Shown here: positions 19,964-30,756 of the stretch, piece after piece
Layout: each line of letters begins with the position of its first letter
Numbering within the stretch: the stretch's first letter is position 1
From: Candidatus Zixiibacteriota bacterium
GTDB taxonomy: Bacteria; Zixibacteria; MSB-5A5; GN15; PGXB01
NCBI GenBank assembly: GCA_016933955.1
Contig: JAFGTT010000015.1
Span: 62,001 to 126,000 of the forward strand
Direction: 5' to 3'
Length of the DNA: 64,000 nucleotides
Position numbers and translations under genes: made by a program
Notes under the pieces: generated by a model
Database searches by the model: none
Told to the model about the DNA's origin: nothing
The model's input: only the letters and a program-made list of their open reading frames with translations

Positions 19964-20299
19964 ATGAGGCTCAACGATTATGAACAGGATGGGGTGTGGG
20001 TACTCGAGCCTAAGGGCAAAATCATGGGGGGACCGGATGCCACCATCCTTCATGAAAAATTGCATGAGTTAATTGAACAGGGCAAGAAGAAAGTAATTAT
20101 AAACCTCTCCAGGGTTGAATGGATGAATTCAACCGGATTAGGAATACTGATCTCCGGACTGACTACCCTGCGCAACAATCATGGTGATTTGAAACTGGCC
20201 AATGTGACCGACAAGATTCAATCGCTTCTGACCATTACCAAGCTGGTAACGGTTTTCGAGGCTTTCGATTCGGTCGAGGATGCCATCAAATCGTTCTAA
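19964..20299 (+). CDS. STAS-domain anti-sigma factor antagonist
   Basis: SpoIIAA/RsbV-like protein of 111 residues. The central VEWMNSTGLGILISGLTTL carries the Ser that a partner kinase would phosphorylate. In partner switching the unphosphorylated form binds the anti-sigma kinase and frees the sigma factor. GGAGG lies 13 bases before the ATG. It is followed by a strong terminator and then by the kinase gene, while a SpoIIE phosphatase follows at 20824, so the three form a full module. Confidence 0.9.
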   Translation: MRLNDYEQDGVWVLEPKGKIMGGPDATILHEKLHELIEQGKKKVIINLSRVEWMNSTGLGILISGLTTLRNNHGDLKLANVTDKIQSLLTITKLVTVFEAFDSVEDAIKSF

Positions 20300-20327
20300 C
20301 CATTTGGAGATAGATAATTATAATGTG

Positions 20328-20356
20328 GGCAGGTTATGTCGGACCTGCCTTTTTTA
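20328..20356 (+). terminator. Terminator between the STAS and anti-sigma genes
   Basis: GGCAGGT (20328-20334) pairs with ACCTGCC (20343-20349), eight-base loop, followed by six or seven Ts. It would end most STAS transcripts before the anti-sigma gene. The first ATG of the longer kinase frame (20336) lies in its loop, arguing for a later start. Confidence 0.85.
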
Positions 20357-20377
20357 TTTAAGATGGAACCCTATAAC

Positions 20378-20800
20378 ATGAAAAGACCAATTATCACTGA
20401 AAATCAGATTAAAATTCCTTCATCCCAGGAATATCTGCCCGATGTCGACATTTTTGTCGAAGGGAGGTTGGCTGAATTCGGCGTCAATGAATCGGCCATC
20501 GCCGATATCGCCATATCCGTTACCGAACTGGTCAATAACGCCATTACTCATGGCAACAAATCCGTTTTTGAAAAAACGGTTATCGTCGATATCGGCAAAA
20601 GTAATTCAACGGTGGAAATTTCCGTCACCGATGAAGGGAACGGATTCAATCCCGACGAAGTTGAAAATCCCATCGATGATAAAAACCTCCTCAAAGAGGT
20701 CGGACGGGGGATTTTTATCACGCGATCGCTCATGGATAAGGTTGAATTCAATTCCCGACCCGGTCGCGGAACCAAAGTCACCATAAAAAAACATATTTGA
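20378..20800 (+). CDS. Anti-sigma factor serine kinase (RsbW/SpoIIAB-like)
   Basis: GHKL-fold kinase of 140 residues. N box ELVNNAITHGN, G1 box DEGNGFNP, G2 box GRGIFITRSLMD and a closing SRPGRGTKVTI are all present. It should phosphorylate the STAS antagonist and bind a sigma factor or other target. I start at the ATG at 20378 (MKRPIITENQ) because the earlier ATG at 20336 is inside the terminator; the ATG at 20363 is also possible. The next gene begins 23 bases after its stop. No sigma factor gene is in the window. Confidence 0.88.
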   Translation: MKRPIITENQIKIPSSQEYLPDVDIFVEGRLAEFGVNESAIADIAISVTELVNNAITHGNKSVFEKTVIVDIGKSNSTVEISVTDEGNGFNPDEVENPIDDKNLLKEVGRGIFITRSLMDKVEFNSRPGRGTKVTIKKHI

Positions 20801-20823
20801 GGAATTTTCGGTCTAATTAAGTA

Positions 20824-23070
20824 ATGGAGTTCATTCAACCCATAACGACCGCGATCTATTTTATTTTCGGCGGTATTTTTCTGTTTTTGGCCTACAGCAT
20901 CCTGCGGGATGACTTCGCGGGACGGCTTAACCGTGTCACCGGTTTGATGCTCTTTTTCGCCGCCTTGGGACCGATCTTTCTTGCCCTTGGATCTATTGTG
21001 GAACCCACCGTCTCGTCGGGAGCACCATTCAAGGAATCGGTTGTATATAACTTACTTTATACCTGGGAGCTTTTTTTCCCGGCCTTTCTCTTATTTTCCT
21101 GGGTTTTTCCGGTTGATCGACTCTCCAGTCTGCGACACCCCCGACTGCGCCTGTTTATCTTCTTCCCTCACCTTTTCCACCTGCTTCTGGCTATTGTATT
21201 TAACAATCCGGAAAAAATACTTGGTCTTCTCGATATCGAATCAGGCGAGGGTTTTATCTCGCTCATCCTGGAACCCCTGACCTTTCTGCTCAAGTGGATC
21301 GTACTCGGTTTCACTCTCCTTCTGAGTTCGGAGAAGACCCTCTTTGCCGTGATCAATGTCATTTACGTCATTCTTGCTCTCTATTTTATAATCCGCGGGC
21401 GGGCGCAGATTTCCAGCGAACCGATACGAAACCGCTCCACTGTAATCATTTATGGTATTTCCATTGCCATGGGTATTTACACTTTCGGATTTCTGCTTCC
21501 GGATATCTTTACTGTTGACCTGTCATCCACCCTGAAAACAATTCTGATAATATTCACCCTATTTATCGGGGGCGGTTCTATCATCTGGTCGATAGTGACC
21601 CATCAGTTTCTCGACATTACTGTCCTGGTCAGGCAATCATTGGTGTATACCATTTCATCGGCGATCCTGGTGGGGATGTACATACTATTGGTCGGACAAA
21701 CCAATATTATGCTGGCATCGATCTTCGGCGAAAAAACCACCATCGCCAATATTGCCTTTATTGTCCTGGCCCTGATACTTTTTCAGCCGATTAACTCCCG
21801 TCTGGATAACATCATCAACCGTTTTTTCATTAAACGCCATACCGATTATCGAAATGTGATGGAGGAACTCTCGCGGAGATTGACCTCGGTTCTGGATCTC
21901 AATCAGGTTCGTGGAACCATTGAGAGGACTCTCCAGTCAAGCATTCTGATAGGGCGCATATATTTTGTCCTTTTTGACGACAAGATCAACGATTATGTCC
22001 TGCTTTCATCGGAAGATTTCCCGGAGATGGTCGCCATTGACCGCAACGATATTTTCCTCGGCGGAGTCGGTCAACTCGATTTTCCGACCACGATCGATCG
22101 CCTATCTCTGTATTCCCAGAACAGCCGCCTCTACGAAGAAATTCACCGCCGCAGAATCCAGTTGATACTGCCGCTCAAAGACGCCAACCATATGCTGGGT
22201 TTCCTGGCCCTGACAGCAAAAATTTCCGGTTTCCGATATAATGCCGAAGATATCAGCATGCTGGGCGTTATTGCCAATCAACTGGTCACTGTCTTGACCA
22301 ATGTTCGTCTTTATCTCGATTCTCTGGAAAAACAACGCCTGCATGATGAAATGACCATGGCTCGACAAATTCAGCTCGACCTGTTACCCAAATATCCTCC
22401 CCGATCCGATTCCTATGAAATATGCGCCTGTTCCTTTCCCTCGCGAACCATCGGAGGCGATTTCTATGATTTTATCGGTAAAAACGATGGGCGTTTTGGG
22501 CTGGTGATTGCCGATGCTTCGGGCAAAGGTTTGCCGGCCGCTCTCATGGTAACCCAGATCCAGGCCATGCTGCGTTCCGAAATCGGCAACGAGAACAGTA
22601 TTTCGCGAATACTTGGAAATGTCAACCGCTATGTTACCCAGATGACCTCTTCGGAAAGGTTTGCCACCCTCTTTTACGGCGAATTTGATCCCGTCTCCAA
22701 CAGATTCTACTACGCCAACGCCGGACATAACTACCCTATTCTGGTCCGCGCCGATGGTTCTTATGAATTTCTCTCAAGGGGAGGTATGTTGATCGGGGCC
22801 TTCAGTAACGCCATGTACGAGGACTCCATGATTCAACTGAACAAGGATGACCTGATTTTCTTCTATACCGATGGGTTATCCGAGGCCATGAACGATAATG
22901 AAGAGGAATACGGGGAGGAACGAATTATCAATCAGGTTGTAGAAAAAAGAACCTTAACCACGGAGGAACTGGCCCGGGCTATTCTGAAGGACAAGGAAAG
23001 CTTTGATCCAGCGGATCCGCCCCGGGATGACACCACTCTGGTAATCCTGAAAATCCTTAAAGGAGTCTGA
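20824..23070 (+). CDS. Membrane SpoIIE/RsbU-type protein phosphatase with GAF domain
   Basis: A protein of 748 residues. About eight hydrophobic segments fill residues 1-330, a 7TM-like sensor region. A GAF-like domain spans about 345-495, ending in MLGVIANQLVTVLTNVRLYL. The PP2C/SpoIIE domain follows a linker with ARQIQLDLLPK; metal-binding and catalytic text is RTIGGDFYDFI, VIADASGKGLPAALM, FYANAGHNYP and FFYTDGLSEAM. It should dephosphorylate the STAS antagonist in response to a membrane or ligand signal. It overlaps nothing; the Nudix gene starts one base after its stop. Confidence 0.92.
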   Translation: MEFIQPITTAIYFIFGGIFLFLAYSILRDDFAGRLNRVTGLMLFFAALGPIFLALGSIVEPTVSSGAPFKESVVYNLLYTWELFFPAFLLFSWVFPVDRLSSLRHPRLRLFIFFPHLFHLLLAIVFNNPEKILGLLDIESGEGFISLILEPLTFLLKWIVLGFTLLLSSEKTLFAVINVIYVILALYFIIRGRAQISSEPIRNRSTVIIYGISIAMGIYTFGFLLPDIFTVDLSSTLKTILIIFTLFIGGGSIIWSIVTHQFLDITVLVRQSLVYTISSAILVGMYILLVGQTNIMLASIFGEKTTIANIAFIVLALILFQPINSRLDNIINRFFIKRHTDYRNVMEELSRRLTSVLDLNQVRGTIERTLQSSILIGRIYFVLFDDKINDYVLLSSEDFPEMVAIDRNDIFLGGVGQLDFPTTIDRLSLYSQNSRLYEEIHRRRIQLILPLKDANHMLGFLALTAKISGFRYNAEDISMLGVIANQLVTVLTNVRLYLDSLEKQRLHDEMTMARQIQLDLLPKYPPRSDSYEICACSFPSRTIGGDFYDFIGKNDGRFGLVIADASGKGLPAALMVTQIQAMLRSEIGNENSISRILGNVNRYVTQMTSSERFATLFYGEFDPVSNRFYYANAGHNYPILVRADGSYEFLSRGGMLIGAFSNAMYEDSMIQLNKDDLIFFYTDGLSEAMNDNEEEYGEERIINQVVEKRTLTTEELARAILKDKESFDPADPPRDDTTLVILKILKGV

Positions 23071-23708: not shown

Positions 23709-25454
23709 ATGCCCCGAAAAATTAGTCTTGAAATCGCACTAACCCTGCTGATATTGGGCCAGAATGTTTTGGCTATTGACAACTATAAAAAATATGACCG
23801 TTCGCCCGAAATGGAAGATTATATCACTATTTCATTCAATGATGACCTGATAACGCTGACCATTTACGGTGATGATACGACCGCTGTTACAACCTTCAGT
23901 CGCGGAGATATCAATCGATCGGAATCAGGGATATCTATCAAGGGGCAATCCCTTTTGACAGCTGATGGGTTCATAATTGGCAATCACGTCTACAGCCCGG
24001 ATCAAATCGACGATGTCAGTATATCGACTGAGGAAAATAAAACGGATATATATTTTCGTAAAAGAAGCGAATCTTCATCAAATCAATTTCGAAACCGCAG
24101 AAAAAATCTAATAACTTCCTTTGAACAAGCCATTGTCTCGGATAGCGATTTTATCCGCGGCGCCGTGGTCGGACTCGGGGCGGATATTAAAATTGACGGC
24201 GAAGTGAATGAAGATGTCATTTCCCTTTTCGGGAATATTGAGATCGACGAAAAAGCTGTTATCAGGGGCGATATTATTGCTCTTGACGGCCAGGTGAAAG
24301 CCGATCGGGGAGCCACCATTTATGGTGGAATAATAGCCTCGGGGAATAAGGGCCGGATACGATTAGGCCGGCATCAATTCTGGCATGATGGTGACAAGGA
24401 ATTTTATCCGATCTTTAAGTTCGATTATAACCGTGTTGACGGAGCGACGCCGCATCTCGGGATAGGTTTTGCGTCGGAAGACTCCTCCCTGCCCCGAATT
24501 GAAATATACGCCGGCTATGGCTTTTCCTCCGAAAGCTGGCGTTATGTTGTGGACCTGGAGCAGTCCTTTTTTATTCCCCAACCCCTAACCATCGGAGGAA
24601 CTATATATAAACGTTTGGCCTCCGATGATGACTGGATTATATCCGATCTGCATAATACCATCTTTGCCCTTCTGGCGACGGAAGATTATAAGGATTTTTA
24701 TGAAACCGAAGGCGGTTACGGTTTCATCCGGTCTGTTCCCGTTAATAATTTGCAGGTGGAATTGGGAATTCGGATCGAGAAATATCACTGGCTGGATGCG
24801 CACGGTGATTTGTGGTCGATGTTCGGCGGCAGTAAGCGTTTCCCGGAAAACTATGCCTCCATCTCGGGACCTGATCGATCTCAAATGATCAATCAACTCG
24901 ATCGGGCAGAGGTTTCCGCCCTGATTGGCAGGTTTGACTATGACAACAGCCGCGATCAGGATAAGTATGAAACTTCGTTCTGGAAGGGATATGGAGAGGT
25001 CGAATGGTTACCCGGTGAATGGAACGATGATTTTGTATATACGCGATACCGGATCCGGCTCGGCCATTACCAGGTGGTTAGCCGTCAGACCGGTCTGTAC
25101 CTCGGTGCCGTGTATGGTCATGCCAACGGTAATTTACCAATCAATAAAATATTCTATATCGGCGGCATAAATACTCTTCTGGGCTACCGGCACAAGGAAT
25201 TCTACGGGAACGAATTCTGGCTCGGGGATATTGAATATGCCATAAGATTCCCCAATACCGATCTGACGGGATGGCTGTTTTACAATATCGGACAGATGGC
25301 CAAAGAAACAGGAAAACTGGGTGATGCTGAAGTAAAAAATTCGCTCGGGATAGGTCTTTCGCTGGGAGACAATATCCGTCTGGATCTCGCCAAACGTCTC
25401 GACCGATCCGACTCGACTTTTAAAATCCATGTCCGTCTTGGACTTAACTTTTAA
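23709..25454 (+). CDS. Surface beta-barrel protein with bactofilin-like passenger
   Basis: A protein of 581 residues. The signal peptide ends near residue 22 (LLILGQNVLA). Residues 140-215 have short hydrophobic repeats, GAVVGLGADIKIDGEVNEDV and EIDEKAVIRGDIIALDGQV, like bactofilin or polymer-forming beta-helices. From about 240 to the terminal aromatic (LGLNF) it reads as a barrel of alternating residues. FYIGGINTLLGYRHKEFYGN resembles the conserved late strand of Omp85-type barrels. It should sit in the outer membrane. No POTRA domain is visible. It starts 70 bases after the Nudix gene. Confidence 0.7.
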   Translation: MPRKISLEIALTLLILGQNVLAIDNYKKYDRSPEMEDYITISFNDDLITLTIYGDDTTAVTTFSRGDINRSESGISIKGQSLLTADGFIIGNHVYSPDQIDDVSISTEENKTDIYFRKRSESSSNQFRNRRKNLITSFEQAIVSDSDFIRGAVVGLGADIKIDGEVNEDVISLFGNIEIDEKAVIRGDIIALDGQVKADRGATIYGGIIASGNKGRIRLGRHQFWHDGDKEFYPIFKFDYNRVDGATPHLGIGFASEDSSLPRIEIYAGYGFSSESWRYVVDLEQSFFIPQPLTIGGTIYKRLASDDDWIISDLHNTIFALLATEDYKDFYETEGGYGFIRSVPVNNLQVELGIRIEKYHWLDAHGDLWSMFGGSKRFPENYASISGPDRSQMINQLDRAEVSALIGRFDYDNSRDQDKYETSFWKGYGEVEWLPGEWNDDFVYTRYRIRLGHYQVVSRQTGLYLGAVYGHANGNLPINKIFYIGGINTLLGYRHKEFYGNEFWLGDIEYAIRFPNTDLTGWLFYNIGQMAKETGKLGDAEVKNSLGIGLSLGDNIRLDLAKRLDRSDSTFKIHVRLGLNF

Positions 25455-25548: not shown

Positions 25549-25628
25549 CTATCCCTCGCAATTCATAAAGTCAACCATATATCTGCCGATAAGATAATGA
25601 GATAACAACATCTAAGCGGTTGAGCGAT

Positions 25629-27452
25629 ATGGAAAAAAAAGACGAAAATACCCTGGATTATTCCTCCAACCTTTTTCTTGATTCTTATCATGAGGAATTC
25701 GAAGCGGATACCGAAAAAATTAAAGTCCCCGACACCAGCGACGTTCTGGCCGAAATGGAAGCGGCTTTGAATGAAATCGCGGAAGATAATCCCCGAATTG
25801 AGGCCGACTCCATTACCGGGAATAAAGCCTCCAATGATCTTAAAGCCGTTCTGCAGGTCTCTCTGGCTATAAACTCCTCGCTGGTTCTGGAGGATCTTCT
25901 CCAAATCGTTATGAAAAAAGCCATCGAATTGCTGGCTGCCGAGCGCGGTTTTATCATGCTTCTCGATGAGACCGACGAATTGCAGTTTAAAACCGCCTAT
26001 AATCTCTGCAAAGAAACCATGGCCGATGAGGATTTCCGGATATCCAATTCAATCGCCGACGAGGTGGCCGCAACCGGGAAATCCGTTTATACCTCCGATG
26101 CTCTTTCGGATGAACGCTTCGCCAAACAGCAGTCGGTGGTAGAACTGCATTTACGATCGATCATGTGCGTCCCCCTGAAAATAAAAAGCAGGGTCATAGG
26201 TATCATATATCTGGATAATTCATCTCAGGCCAAGCTGTTTCTAAAATCCGACCTGTATCTTTTTGAAATGTTGGCCCAGCAGGCCGCTCATGCCATTCAC
26301 AATGCCATGCTGTACTACCAGCTTCTTGATTTGAAAAAATTCAATGAAAAAGTCATCAACAACTCCCCGGTCGGTGTCTTTGTTATCGATTACAGGTACA
26401 ACCTCGTATCCATCAACGACGCTGCCCTGGCCGTCCTCGACAAGAATCGGGATGGCATCGAGTTGTTAAATGTCGGTAAAACCGCTTCGAACTTCTTCGA
26501 TCTGGTCCCGGATAAGGAAATCTATAAGTGGCAAAAAATGATCGACACGGCCATGGAAACTCACGAACCGTTCGAGGAAGCCAGATACTTTCACAATACC
26601 GGTTACGGAGAAAAAGTCCTGTCCGTCAAAATCTCTCCGATCAATAAAATCCCTCATGGCGGCGACGGACTTATCCTGGTGATCGAAGATATCACTGAAA
26701 AAGTCATCATGGAAAAATATGTTATTCTTTCTGAAAAACTGGTGGCCCGGGGCGAAATGGCGGCTTCAATCGGACATGAACTCAACAATTACCTGGCCAT
26801 TATTGCCAATAATGCCGAACTGCTCTCCTATAATCTCGAAAAAGAACGCGATGACAAAGCCCGATTCAATTCGCAGCAAATTGTCGAAAATATTTCCAAG
26901 ATGAAGCGTTTTACCGATGGCCTGATGGATTTCTCCAAGCTTGAAACGGAAATTATCGTTTATGATATCAGGCGCCTGATCGAGGAATTACTTTTCTCCC
27001 TGAAAGCTCAATCGCGCTTCAGGCAGGTCGAGTTCTCGCTCGATTTCGACAGTAAAATTCCCGAAATCGAAATCGATGTCGGCCAGGTTCAGCAAGTCCT
27101 CCTAAATCTTCTTAATAACGCGGCCGACGCCATCAGCGAACGCGAAAAACTGGAAATCCAGAACGGCAACCATGATTTCACGAAAAGGATTTCGCTAAAG
27201 GTAAAAAACGATCCGGCCGATTCCAGCGTCAAAATCATGATAACCGATAATGGAATCGGTATCAGTGAGAAAAATCTGTCAAAAATCTTCCAGCTTCATT
27301 TCACCACCAAGAAAACCGGTCATGGCCTCGGCCTGGCCAATTGCAAAACGATTATTAAAAACCATCAGGGTGATATCACTTTGACATCAAAAGAGGGCGA
27401 AGGAACGACTTTTACGATTTTGTTGCCGGAAAAACAACTTCAAGCTCTTTGA
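25629..27452 (+). CDS. GAF-PAS sensor histidine kinase
   Basis: Cytosolic kinase of 607 residues. A GAF domain spans about residues 60-235 (QVSLAINSSLVLEDLLQIVM onward), then a PAS domain (FNEKVINNSPVGVFVIDYRY) to about 365. The HisKA-like helix has the phospho-acceptor His in ASIGHELNNYLAII. The GHKL domain has N box QVLLNLLNNAADAI, G1 DNGIGISE and G2 GHGLGLANC. I prefer the ATG at 25629; a TTG nine bases earlier is possible. There is no receiver domain and no adjacent response regulator. The Ser/Thr kinase gene starts three bases after the stop. Confidence 0.92.
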   Translation: MEKKDENTLDYSSNLFLDSYHEEFEADTEKIKVPDTSDVLAEMEAALNEIAEDNPRIEADSITGNKASNDLKAVLQVSLAINSSLVLEDLLQIVMKKAIELLAAERGFIMLLDETDELQFKTAYNLCKETMADEDFRISNSIADEVAATGKSVYTSDALSDERFAKQQSVVELHLRSIMCVPLKIKSRVIGIIYLDNSSQAKLFLKSDLYLFEMLAQQAAHAIHNAMLYYQLLDLKKFNEKVINNSPVGVFVIDYRYNLVSINDAALAVLDKNRDGIELLNVGKTASNFFDLVPDKEIYKWQKMIDTAMETHEPFEEARYFHNTGYGEKVLSVKISPINKIPHGGDGLILVIEDITEKVIMEKYVILSEKLVARGEMAASIGHELNNYLAIIANNAELLSYNLEKERDDKARFNSQQIVENISKMKRFTDGLMDFSKLETEIIVYDIRRLIEELLFSLKAQSRFRQVEFSLDFDSKIPEIEIDVGQVQQVLLNLLNNAADAISEREKLEIQNGNHDFTKRISLKVKNDPADSSVKIMITDNGIGISEKNLSKIFQLHFTTKKTGHGLGLANCKTIIKNHQGDITLTSKEGEGTTFTILLPEKQLQAL

Positions 27453-30400: not shown

Positions 30401-30494
30401 GACTTTTCTGGAAAACGAATGCATCATTTATGTTTCGACGGCAGTCAAAAAGCTGGGAGAAATCCTCTCACAAAAAAAGAAGGCAGACCAATAA
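27456..30494 (+). CDS. Ser/Thr protein kinase with long TPR region
   Basis: A protein of 1012 residues. The Hanks kinase domain covers about 1-280: loop ILGSGGTARVHLA, the ATP Lys in LAFKTI, catalytic loop HGDIKPQN (HGD in place of HRD), DFS in place of DFG, and APE in YMAPETI. From about residue 450 to 980 there are many TPR units (such as LSHTLNNMGNIYTISSQF and ARTLNNLGYVLYELGECD). There is no membrane helix. It is in one operon with the histidine kinase, three bases away, suggesting joint signalling. It ends at a bidirectional terminator. Confidence 0.92.
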   Translation: MTAEGLTPGNYIIDRILGSGGTARVHLARKKNNNRPLAFKTILNNIPEDINQFIALINRENSLIGGLSYPGLVRIMEINTENSSTPYIILEYCPGLTLDVIPIIDDHHIFLNVLSALSINLYYLRLAGIYHGDIKPQNIFLTGRIDDYAGSTLRYTKISDFSLARRDTENKDSRLGIGTVGYMAPETIDSGILDHRSDLFACGVVAYQLATGQHPFLNHETDPVRINAAVKEQEPPEPNRIRPNLDKAISNTIMTLLHKSPKFRPTDGYSLCEYLEKLGATFPFRKCIRPKHILEIMAGKTTNEILASAPLTMDAPIRETLLEYCGNQQSRLRNILEINFQMGRLQWSNGKLGFSCPPAGIIFPNRLRKLDRIRFHSLPYSRKKKIVLTALTGDIPRAMSIGIISEKDVTEFVTRPLLNYARHGLSDTTVRRFAGKLADYALETYLDDILAAGLFIKAGNIERGFSVTIDAANKLINDNKNDQALELLQSMADLCRLENDREHLARILMEIGDIEKMIGDTDRAGKTYYEIINLYKNLPPDRLLAETYKDLGDLYKLKRDYARGIEALLEAKKIYGTLDDQLELSHTLNNMGNIYTISSQFRKALKSYFAALKIQRRLDAKADMASTLNNIGSVCYFQGRLKRSSRLLEQTLELLRRIGNAIEIARTLNNLGYVLYELGECDRALEYLNESSQLNRKIGSKKELLFNLENLTLVMLGAGQLKESIAYIKEALSLADDLNDEQMTAVFLTSMAVAQMKMGFYGRAYQNFQKAVGIYEKIDDSNSYITCLVELAGLFFKLNQREQASQFAYKGKNLAEKSGNKKGVIQTNLILGEIAGDIEILKESLNLAVPLHSPITTNQIMLRLAASYLQKGEIENARNTLEQLSEYFGDGHSNLDNANYYNMWGKISGSLNNGTEARRYFEKAIRLASDSHLILEKIDALSALGKLCFENRDFEESYRFYKEAVGSIRTIAADIKEERYRRTFLENECIIYVSTAVKKLGEILSQKKKADQ

Positions 30495-30511
30495 AATGGC
30501 CGGCCTTCTTT
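30472..30511. terminator. Bidirectional terminator
   Basis: AAAGAAGGC (30476-30484) pairs with GCCTTCTTT (30503-30511). The plus side ends with a short T-run and serves the Ser/Thr kinase gene. The minus side has seven Ts (30472-30478) and would end the 22-residue peptide gene. Confidence 0.7.
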
Positions 30512-30527
30512 TCAACTTCCAAAGGAG

Positions 30528-30596
30528 TTATTGCCCGCCAAGACTGATTCCAGCAGGGGCGATTTTCTCCTCCAGTTTTTCGATGGTCAATTTCAT
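30528..30596 (-). CDS. 22-residue peptide gene
   Basis: A short ORF with unusually strong signals. ATG at 30596 follows a near-perfect AAAGGAGG (30605-30612 region), with seven bases of spacing, and the stop is followed by a terminator with seven Ts. The peptide starts MKLTIEKLEEK, has IAPAGIS in the middle and ends LGGQ, with a charged helix-like first half and a small Gly-rich tail. The L-E-E-K-I-A-P string resembles a motif I recall at the start of exported or short proteins in planctomycete-like genomes; this is memory only. Role unknown: leader peptide, signal or precursor are all possible. Confidence 0.55.
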   Translation of the reverse strand: MKLTIEKLEEKIAPAGISLGGQ

Positions 30597-30635
30597 TCAC
30601 CCACCTCCTTTGAAGCTGTTGATTAATAAAGAAAT

Positions 30636-30656
30636 CCCGGCTTTCCGGGCTTTTTT
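30636..30656 (+). terminator. Short hairpin with T-run upstream of the peptide gene
   Basis: CCCGG (30636-30640), loop CTTT, CCGGG (30645-30649), then C and six Ts. It is oriented as a plus-strand terminator, possibly a backup for the kinase operon. On the minus strand it would lie in the leader of the peptide gene. Confidence 0.5.
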
Positions 30657-30727
30657 GTTGTCATTCCAGATGTCAGTCGATTTTTCAGGGTCAATCCATT
30701 GACCGTAATTCTCCTTTACTTATTATC

Positions 30728-30756
30728 CAATAAAAGAAATAAACTGGATAAGTCAA
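30728..30756 (-). promoter_or_regulatory. Possible promoter of the peptide gene
   Basis: On the minus strand TTGACT (30751-30756), 17 bases, TTATTG (30728-30733); GATAAT also occurs with poor spacing. The same TTGACT-17-TTATTG pattern precedes the lipoprotein at 38482. GTCAATGGATTGAC, a perfect 6-base inverted repeat, lies in the leader. Confidence 0.35.

Follow-up and report, generated by a model that had tools for sequence, protein, structure and literature searches.

A 22-residue peptide gene conserved across Zixibacteria as a probable leader and core precursor for a PqqD-M50-HlyD protein

A 22-codon open reading frame (ORF) on the minus strand of the window, i.e. the whole stretch of 64,000 nucleotides analysed here, is a real protein gene and not a chance frame, since it is conserved across relatives in both tblastn and HMM searches and its leader region has a pN/pS of 0.22. 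We propose, with a probability of roughly 0.7, that the product is a minimal precursor consisting of a leader and a core, that it is processed and exported by a PqqD-M50-HlyD protein (hereafter, the partner), and that its most likely role is that of a self-produced signal.

Base-level inspection bore out all of the elements described in the initial annotation: a near-perfect Shine-Dalgarno (SD) sequence, a seven-base spacing, an ATG, 22 codons, a stop codon and a stem followed by seven Ts (Table 1). On the minus strand, the ATG at 30596, located 7 nt after AAAGGAGG, is followed by 22 codons and a TAA at 30530-30528. When both strands of the 64 kb were searched for starts preceded at the right spacing by at least seven contiguous bases of AAAGGAGGTG, only four ATGs were found; among these four, the peptide ATG alone has the full 10 bases and is the only intergenic start with an ORF of more than two codons. 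The terminator hairpin (30512-30475, minus strand) has a folding energy of –21.2 kcal/mol (z = –5.2; 0 of 200 shuffled sequences folded equally well) and precedes seven T. The window peptide has no match in Pfam, NCBIfam or Rfam. Because a gene of this size is too short for standard annotation, it has probably been overlooked in most of these genomes.

Table 1. Positions of the peptide gene, its signals and the associated genes in the window
Feature	Position	Strand	Remark
Omp85-superfamily outer-membrane protein	23709..25454	plus	neighbour in 30/38 loci
GAF-PAS histidine kinase	25620..27452	plus	neighbour in 36/38 loci
Ser/Thr kinase with TPR repeats, 1012 aa	27456..30494	plus	convergent, tail-to-tail with the peptide gene in 38/38 loci
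Intrinsic terminator of the peptide transcript	30473..30512	minus	extends into the convergent kinase gene at its 3' end
Inverted repeat, downstream arm	30512..30527	minus	immediately 3' of the peptide stop codon
Peptide gene, ATG to TAA	30528..30596	minus	product MKLTIEKLEEKIAPAGISLGGQ; predicted leader MKLTIEKLEEKIAP, predicted core AGISLGGQ
Shine-Dalgarno sequence AAAGGAGGTG	30602..30611	minus	base-level inspection; near-perfect
Inverted repeat, upstream arm	30605..30622	minus	covers the SD, pairs with 30527-30512
Terminator-like hairpin of the kinase operon	30636..30656	plus	weak fold; beyond the peptide gene
PqqD-M50-HlyD protein, 777 aa	7116..9449	minus	HEFAH at residue 195, LRYDG near 293

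With the 22-mer as the tblastn query, 83 of 117 relatives had a match, which was single in almost every genome. An HMM built from 37 members detected the peptide in 105 of the 132 genomes from the phylum Zixibacteria (65 of the 78 good genomes), nearly always as one copy. The frame and the SD are retained among relatives, with a near-consensus SD 5' of the start codon in nearly all of them. In alignment A1, L8, E9, A13 and P14 are invariant, L3 and E6 are at least 90% conserved, and the consensus is xxYxLxIExLEEKIAPxGxSxGGQ. Over 11 leader codons, pN/pS was 0.225 (769 pairwise comparisons, the pairs being non-independent), and 4220 of 6820 leader differences (62%) fell at third positions. Equal frequencies of synonymous and non-synonymous changes had been named beforehand as evidence against the gene; the frequencies found indicate purifying selection.

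In the window's family, the ORF is enclosed by an inverted repeat that would hide the SD, as might suit a reading in which the transcript is untranslated and acts as a regulatory RNA or attenuator, the ORF inside its hairpin being due to chance. We regard that reading as hardly credible, because the codon-level selection contradicts it, because the frame and SD are kept across the phylum while the hairpin is absent in most relatives, and because there is neither a same-strand downstream gene to attenuate nor an Rfam match. The attenuator-type leader allowed for in the initial annotation is unlikely as well, since the next downstream gene lies on the opposite strand. Besides the window's family, two class relatives (L009, L014) have a well-formed repeat, and most other loci lack it; in 67 loci, matched arms paired hardly better than mismatched arms (–27.4 versus –26.0 kcal/mol), and a structured-RNA reading was rejected given this result and the confinement of the repeat to some families. 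The peptide terminator lies inside the kinase gene, and the hairpin of the kinase operon lies past the peptide gene (window 30494-30656, plus strand). With the terminator positions crossed in this manner, the convergent transcripts would overlap across the whole peptide gene; the kinase mRNA would run antisense through all of it, and the antisense relationship is possibly mutual.

The gene has the conserved leader and variable core that are generally expected of a precursor of ribosomally made peptides (RiPPs): E, LE and AP are kept, and the tails differ between the copies of an array and between phyla. In genus g32, arrays adjoin the partner, with seven peptide genes in genome G044 and four in G055 in a row after the partner gene (array loci L083/L115 and L084/L113, respectively), and a third genome of the genus, G041, has five peptide genes split over contigs. 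The array leaders are alike over the first 14-17 residues (MxYELKxExLEARIAP) and the tails differ (SRYGAE, SKYGSSR, SRWGAD, SKYGIG, SRFGVDD and SRFGVDDIDSPCG, among others). By inspection, each copy in G044 whose sequence was read has its own terminator. A promoter-like element, TGTAAG-N15-CAAATA, possibly a site for a dedicated sigma factor, occurs 59-108 nt upstream of array copies in G044 and G055; it was rejected as a general promoter, being restricted to this one genus. At two other loci (L059 in G101 and L060 in G087), a tandem pair of peptide genes was observed beside the kinase, the partner gene being elsewhere in the genome; the two cores differ but are both Gly-rich (GGGGSGGL and GLGSGGLQ). 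In most of the phylum, there is a single copy with an almost fixed GxSxGGQ core, which may belong to a longer recognised unit. A release-factor-like role of GGQ was rejected, as the C-terminal end varies (GGE, GGG, GGL, GAE).

We compared the gene neighbourhoods in 38 loci and found that in 20 of them, the partner gene (product of ~770 aa) is located directly upstream of the peptide gene on the same strand, with 235-505 nt between the end of the partner gene and the LE motif of the peptide. In the window's family, the partner gene is 21-26 kb from the peptide, which is why the initial annotation saw no link, and in some class relatives it is elsewhere in the genome. The statement that nothing links the two directly no longer holds, given these 20 related loci and the presence of one copy of each in the window's own genome. 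Over 117 genomes, 78 contained both, 5 the peptide only, 9 the partner only and 25 neither (Fisher test, P = 2e-13, uncorrected for phylogeny or incomplete genomes). In five of the nine partner-only genomes, divergent peptides that the first search had missed adjoin the partner; the peptide HMM was silent in three genomes that contain the partner (G112, G116 and the fragmentary G008). Adjacency and co-occurrence provide the link that is generally looked for in RiPP precursors, namely to a protein whose RRE/PqqD domain binds leaders; the PqqD scores are weak. Together with the conserved leader and the array-variable tails, these results give good support to the term precursor, which the initial annotation had offered as one of its readings.

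The most constant neighbour of the peptide overall is the Ser/Thr kinase with TPR repeats, not the partner. The kinase gene is convergent with the peptide gene in every one of the 38 loci, irrespective of whether the partner has moved away, and the product might thus act inside the cell as an uncleaved small protein that controls this kinase, its association with the partner being secondary. We consider this improbable, because three genomes (G044, G055 and G094) retain the peptide and the partner together with no kinase nearby, and because other phyla keep both amid mostly different neighbours. Judging from gene order, the peptide and the partner are best read as the tighter functional pair, since they stay together where the kinase is missing, and the kinase operon as a frequent but separable neighbour; the kinase-TPR protein is a possible responder to the peptide. 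The window also contains a regulatory island near the peptide (19964-23070), with STAS, anti-sigma-like HATPase and SpoIIE phosphatase genes and sensor kinases. A similar island was observed at L103 and L104, where the Ser/Thr kinase-TPR gene has been lost.

The N-terminus of the partner matched the Pfam PqqD model in 11 of 17 relatives' domains (best E = 1.6e-4), the window copy reaching E = 2.1e-4 in isolation, which is below the Pfam cut-off. The best NCBIfam match of the middle part was the daptide intramembrane metalloprotease (NF041824), with 216 bits, short of the cut-off of 300 bits; H195, E196, H199 and D297 were invariant in 28 homologues. The C-terminal half is an adaptor of the HlyD/MacA/EmrA type by Pfam, PDB sequence and fold. 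An AlphaFold2 model had a mean pLDDT of 80.6 and a pTM of 0.42, with the packing of the domains uncertain. Leader removal by MpaP, the daptide member, is RRE-dependent (PMC10036551), and the maturation of epipeptides and pearlins likewise involves M50 proteases (PMC10885120). PqqD-M50-HlyD, a common orphan kind of protein, thereby gains a testable substrate.

These features suggest that the peptide probably serves as substrate for a membrane protein by which its tail is trimmed and exported. The leader, residues 1-14 (MKLTIEKLEEKIAP), would dock on the PqqD-like (RRE) N-terminal domain of the partner; the M50 domain, with its HEFAH and LRYDG motifs, would cut at or just after IAP; and the HlyD adaptor would pass the remaining Gly/Ser core of ~8 residues, AGISLGGQ, outward. 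The core may leave the cell unmodified, since no modifying enzyme is a constant neighbour among the 38 loci, but an enzyme encoded elsewhere could also act on it. Given that the core hardly varies within the phylum and that a sensor-kinase operon adjoins the gene, a self-produced signal appears to be its most likely role. If so, it would be a peptide autoinducer common to a whole phylum; to our knowledge, almost nothing is known about communication in these bacteria. The same processing and export could alternatively yield a bacteriocin-like antimicrobial aimed at competitors, which we find unlikely. Toxins usually diversify, whereas most of the phylum has a single copy with an almost fixed core, and an immunity gene was not found as a constant neighbour among the 38 loci. 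It is the tandem arrays with diversified cores, combined with export by HlyD, that resemble epipeptide and bacteriocin systems, and in the case of EpeP, the epipeptide that this M50 protease matures is antimicrobial (PMC10885120).

The pairing of peptide and partner extends to homologous PqqD-M50(-HlyD) genes in six other phyla. We scanned with a partner profile, using one genome per species, and obtained 80 loci, 64 of them outside Zixibacteria; in 12 of these 64, a small ORF has an SD and encodes the motif E-x-LE-x-x-[IV]-AP, compared with 0 in the same scan of 20 Markov-shuffled sets. The phyla concerned are Acidobacteria, Rokubacteria, Verrucomicrobia, Gemmatimonadetes, Planctomycetes (Gemmataceae, Phycisphaera) and Aminicenantes. 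Most of the ORFs are located 300-700 nt upstream of the partner, some in two to four copies, and those of the Gemmatimonadetes loci are 3-4 kb from it; whole-genome searches of these records gave one to five members each. Peptide and partner are kept and the neighbours are mostly different, and in a single Gemmatimonadetes locus a Ser/Thr kinase adjoins the M50 gene. In many of these ORFs, the tail is longer and has a high content of Gly, Asn, Pro, Ser, Thr or Lys-His repeats, with lengths of up to ~100 residues or more (L114, L134), and the tail ATGNPGNNNPPLNNTNNPGNEGTGGQVSTGN is nearly unchanged in one verrucomicrobial and one gemmataceal locus.

Several further patterns were observed in these loci. 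At L122, L130 and L138, from Gemmataceae, Acidobacteria and Verrucomicrobia, the leader is followed by a near-identical tail (GNPGNNNPPLNNTNNPGNEGTGGQVSTGN, NPGNEVSNGxKPQP), for which recent transfer and a conserved core function are both possible explanations. At L114 (4718-5119), L121 and L134, it is followed by long low-complexity tails; Chthoniobacterales have a leader-bearing Gly/Thr-rich protein of 133 aa, and Rokubacteria have tails of Lys/His-Gly-Ser repeats, which raises the question of whether such tails are structural or metal-binding secreted peptides. In the gemmataceal genome of L122, a weak leader match (G135:C186:22566-22610, E = 0.007) lies within an open frame of 1614 aa, and the leader type might serve large proteins too. 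A broader reading, held tentatively and at somewhat less than even odds, is that of an unnamed trans-phylum group of leader-directed exported peptides with the motif E-x-LE-x-[KR]-[IV]-AP, in which one PqqD-M50-HlyD protein would recognise, cleave and export the peptide, and which in Zixibacteria would comprise a nearly invariant signal of 8 residues read by the kinase operon. In at least seven phyla, many of which have not been cultured, the leader motif offers a means of detecting peptide genes that have escaped notice.

We compared the peptide and its partner with known systems. No name for the peptide family was found in Pfam, NCBIfam or the literature searched, where text matches to the motif were unrelated, and the family looks unnamed because every Pfam and NCBIfam score falls short of the cut-off of the model concerned. 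The closest protease is that of the daptides, MpaP (NF041824), an RRE-dependent intramembrane metalloprotease that removes the leader. However, the partner attains 216 of the 300 bits required and is fused to HlyD, none of the cores compared here ends in Thr as daptides do by rule (PMC10036551), and none of the daptide enzymes (oxidative decarboxylase, aminotransferase, methyltransferase) is a constant neighbour of the peptide. In the epipeptide system (EpeX with EpeP/YydH/LiaK, NF058609), a small ribosomal precursor likewise adjoins an M50 protease with presumed roles in its cleavage and export (PMC10885120). The partner differs in scoring 48.6 bits against a cut-off of 225 and in its fusion to HlyD; a radical SAM epimerase is not a constant neighbour, and the precursor is far shorter with an unrelated leader. 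Double-glycine leader peptides with C39 transporters are also short exported peptides, one or several per locus, and export would be the shared feature. A double-glycine cut site was rejected here, as the GG stands at the extreme C-terminus before the final Q and the stop codon, with no C39-ABC neighbour.

Two systems in which the peptide acts as a scaffold were also considered. PqqA of PQQ biosynthesis is likewise a peptide of ~22 residues bound by a PqqD domain, as would be the case here, and ammosamide and lymphostin are built on pearlin scaffolds (NF033737) whose leader ends in a segment containing IAP; the ammosamide precursor AmmA yields the tryptic fragment IAPLALA-W (PMC11117183). The Amm_Lyn_leader model weakly matches some family members (E = 0.008-0.011; the best shown has 15.8 bits at E about 0.01, with a cut-off of 30 bits) and does not match the window peptide. 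The M50 proteases TglG and TmoG release pearlins (PMC10885120), and the peptide, like PqqA, has one copy per genome. The peptide could accordingly serve repeatedly as the scaffold on which a small molecule or cofactor is built, with the M50 protein freeing a modified C-terminal residue, but we think this quite doubtful: a modifying enzyme, including a PqqE-like one, is never a constant neighbour, PF04738 (PEARL/LanB) matched 0 of 60 genomes of the phylum (the control set being equally silent), and the tails, unlike those of a scaffold, vary among the copies of an array and are, in other phyla, in part more than 100 residues long. In contrast to PQQ biosynthesis, PqqD is here fused to a protease-exporter, and the core has no conserved Glu/Tyr pair. 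As an exported precursor, the peptide, by analogy, appears to work with its partner like a RiPP-like leader/core system with an RRE-guided intramembrane protease, outside the curated daptide, epipeptide and Amm/Lyn cut-offs, and the IAP segment of AmmA points to a possibly wider use of leaders of this type.
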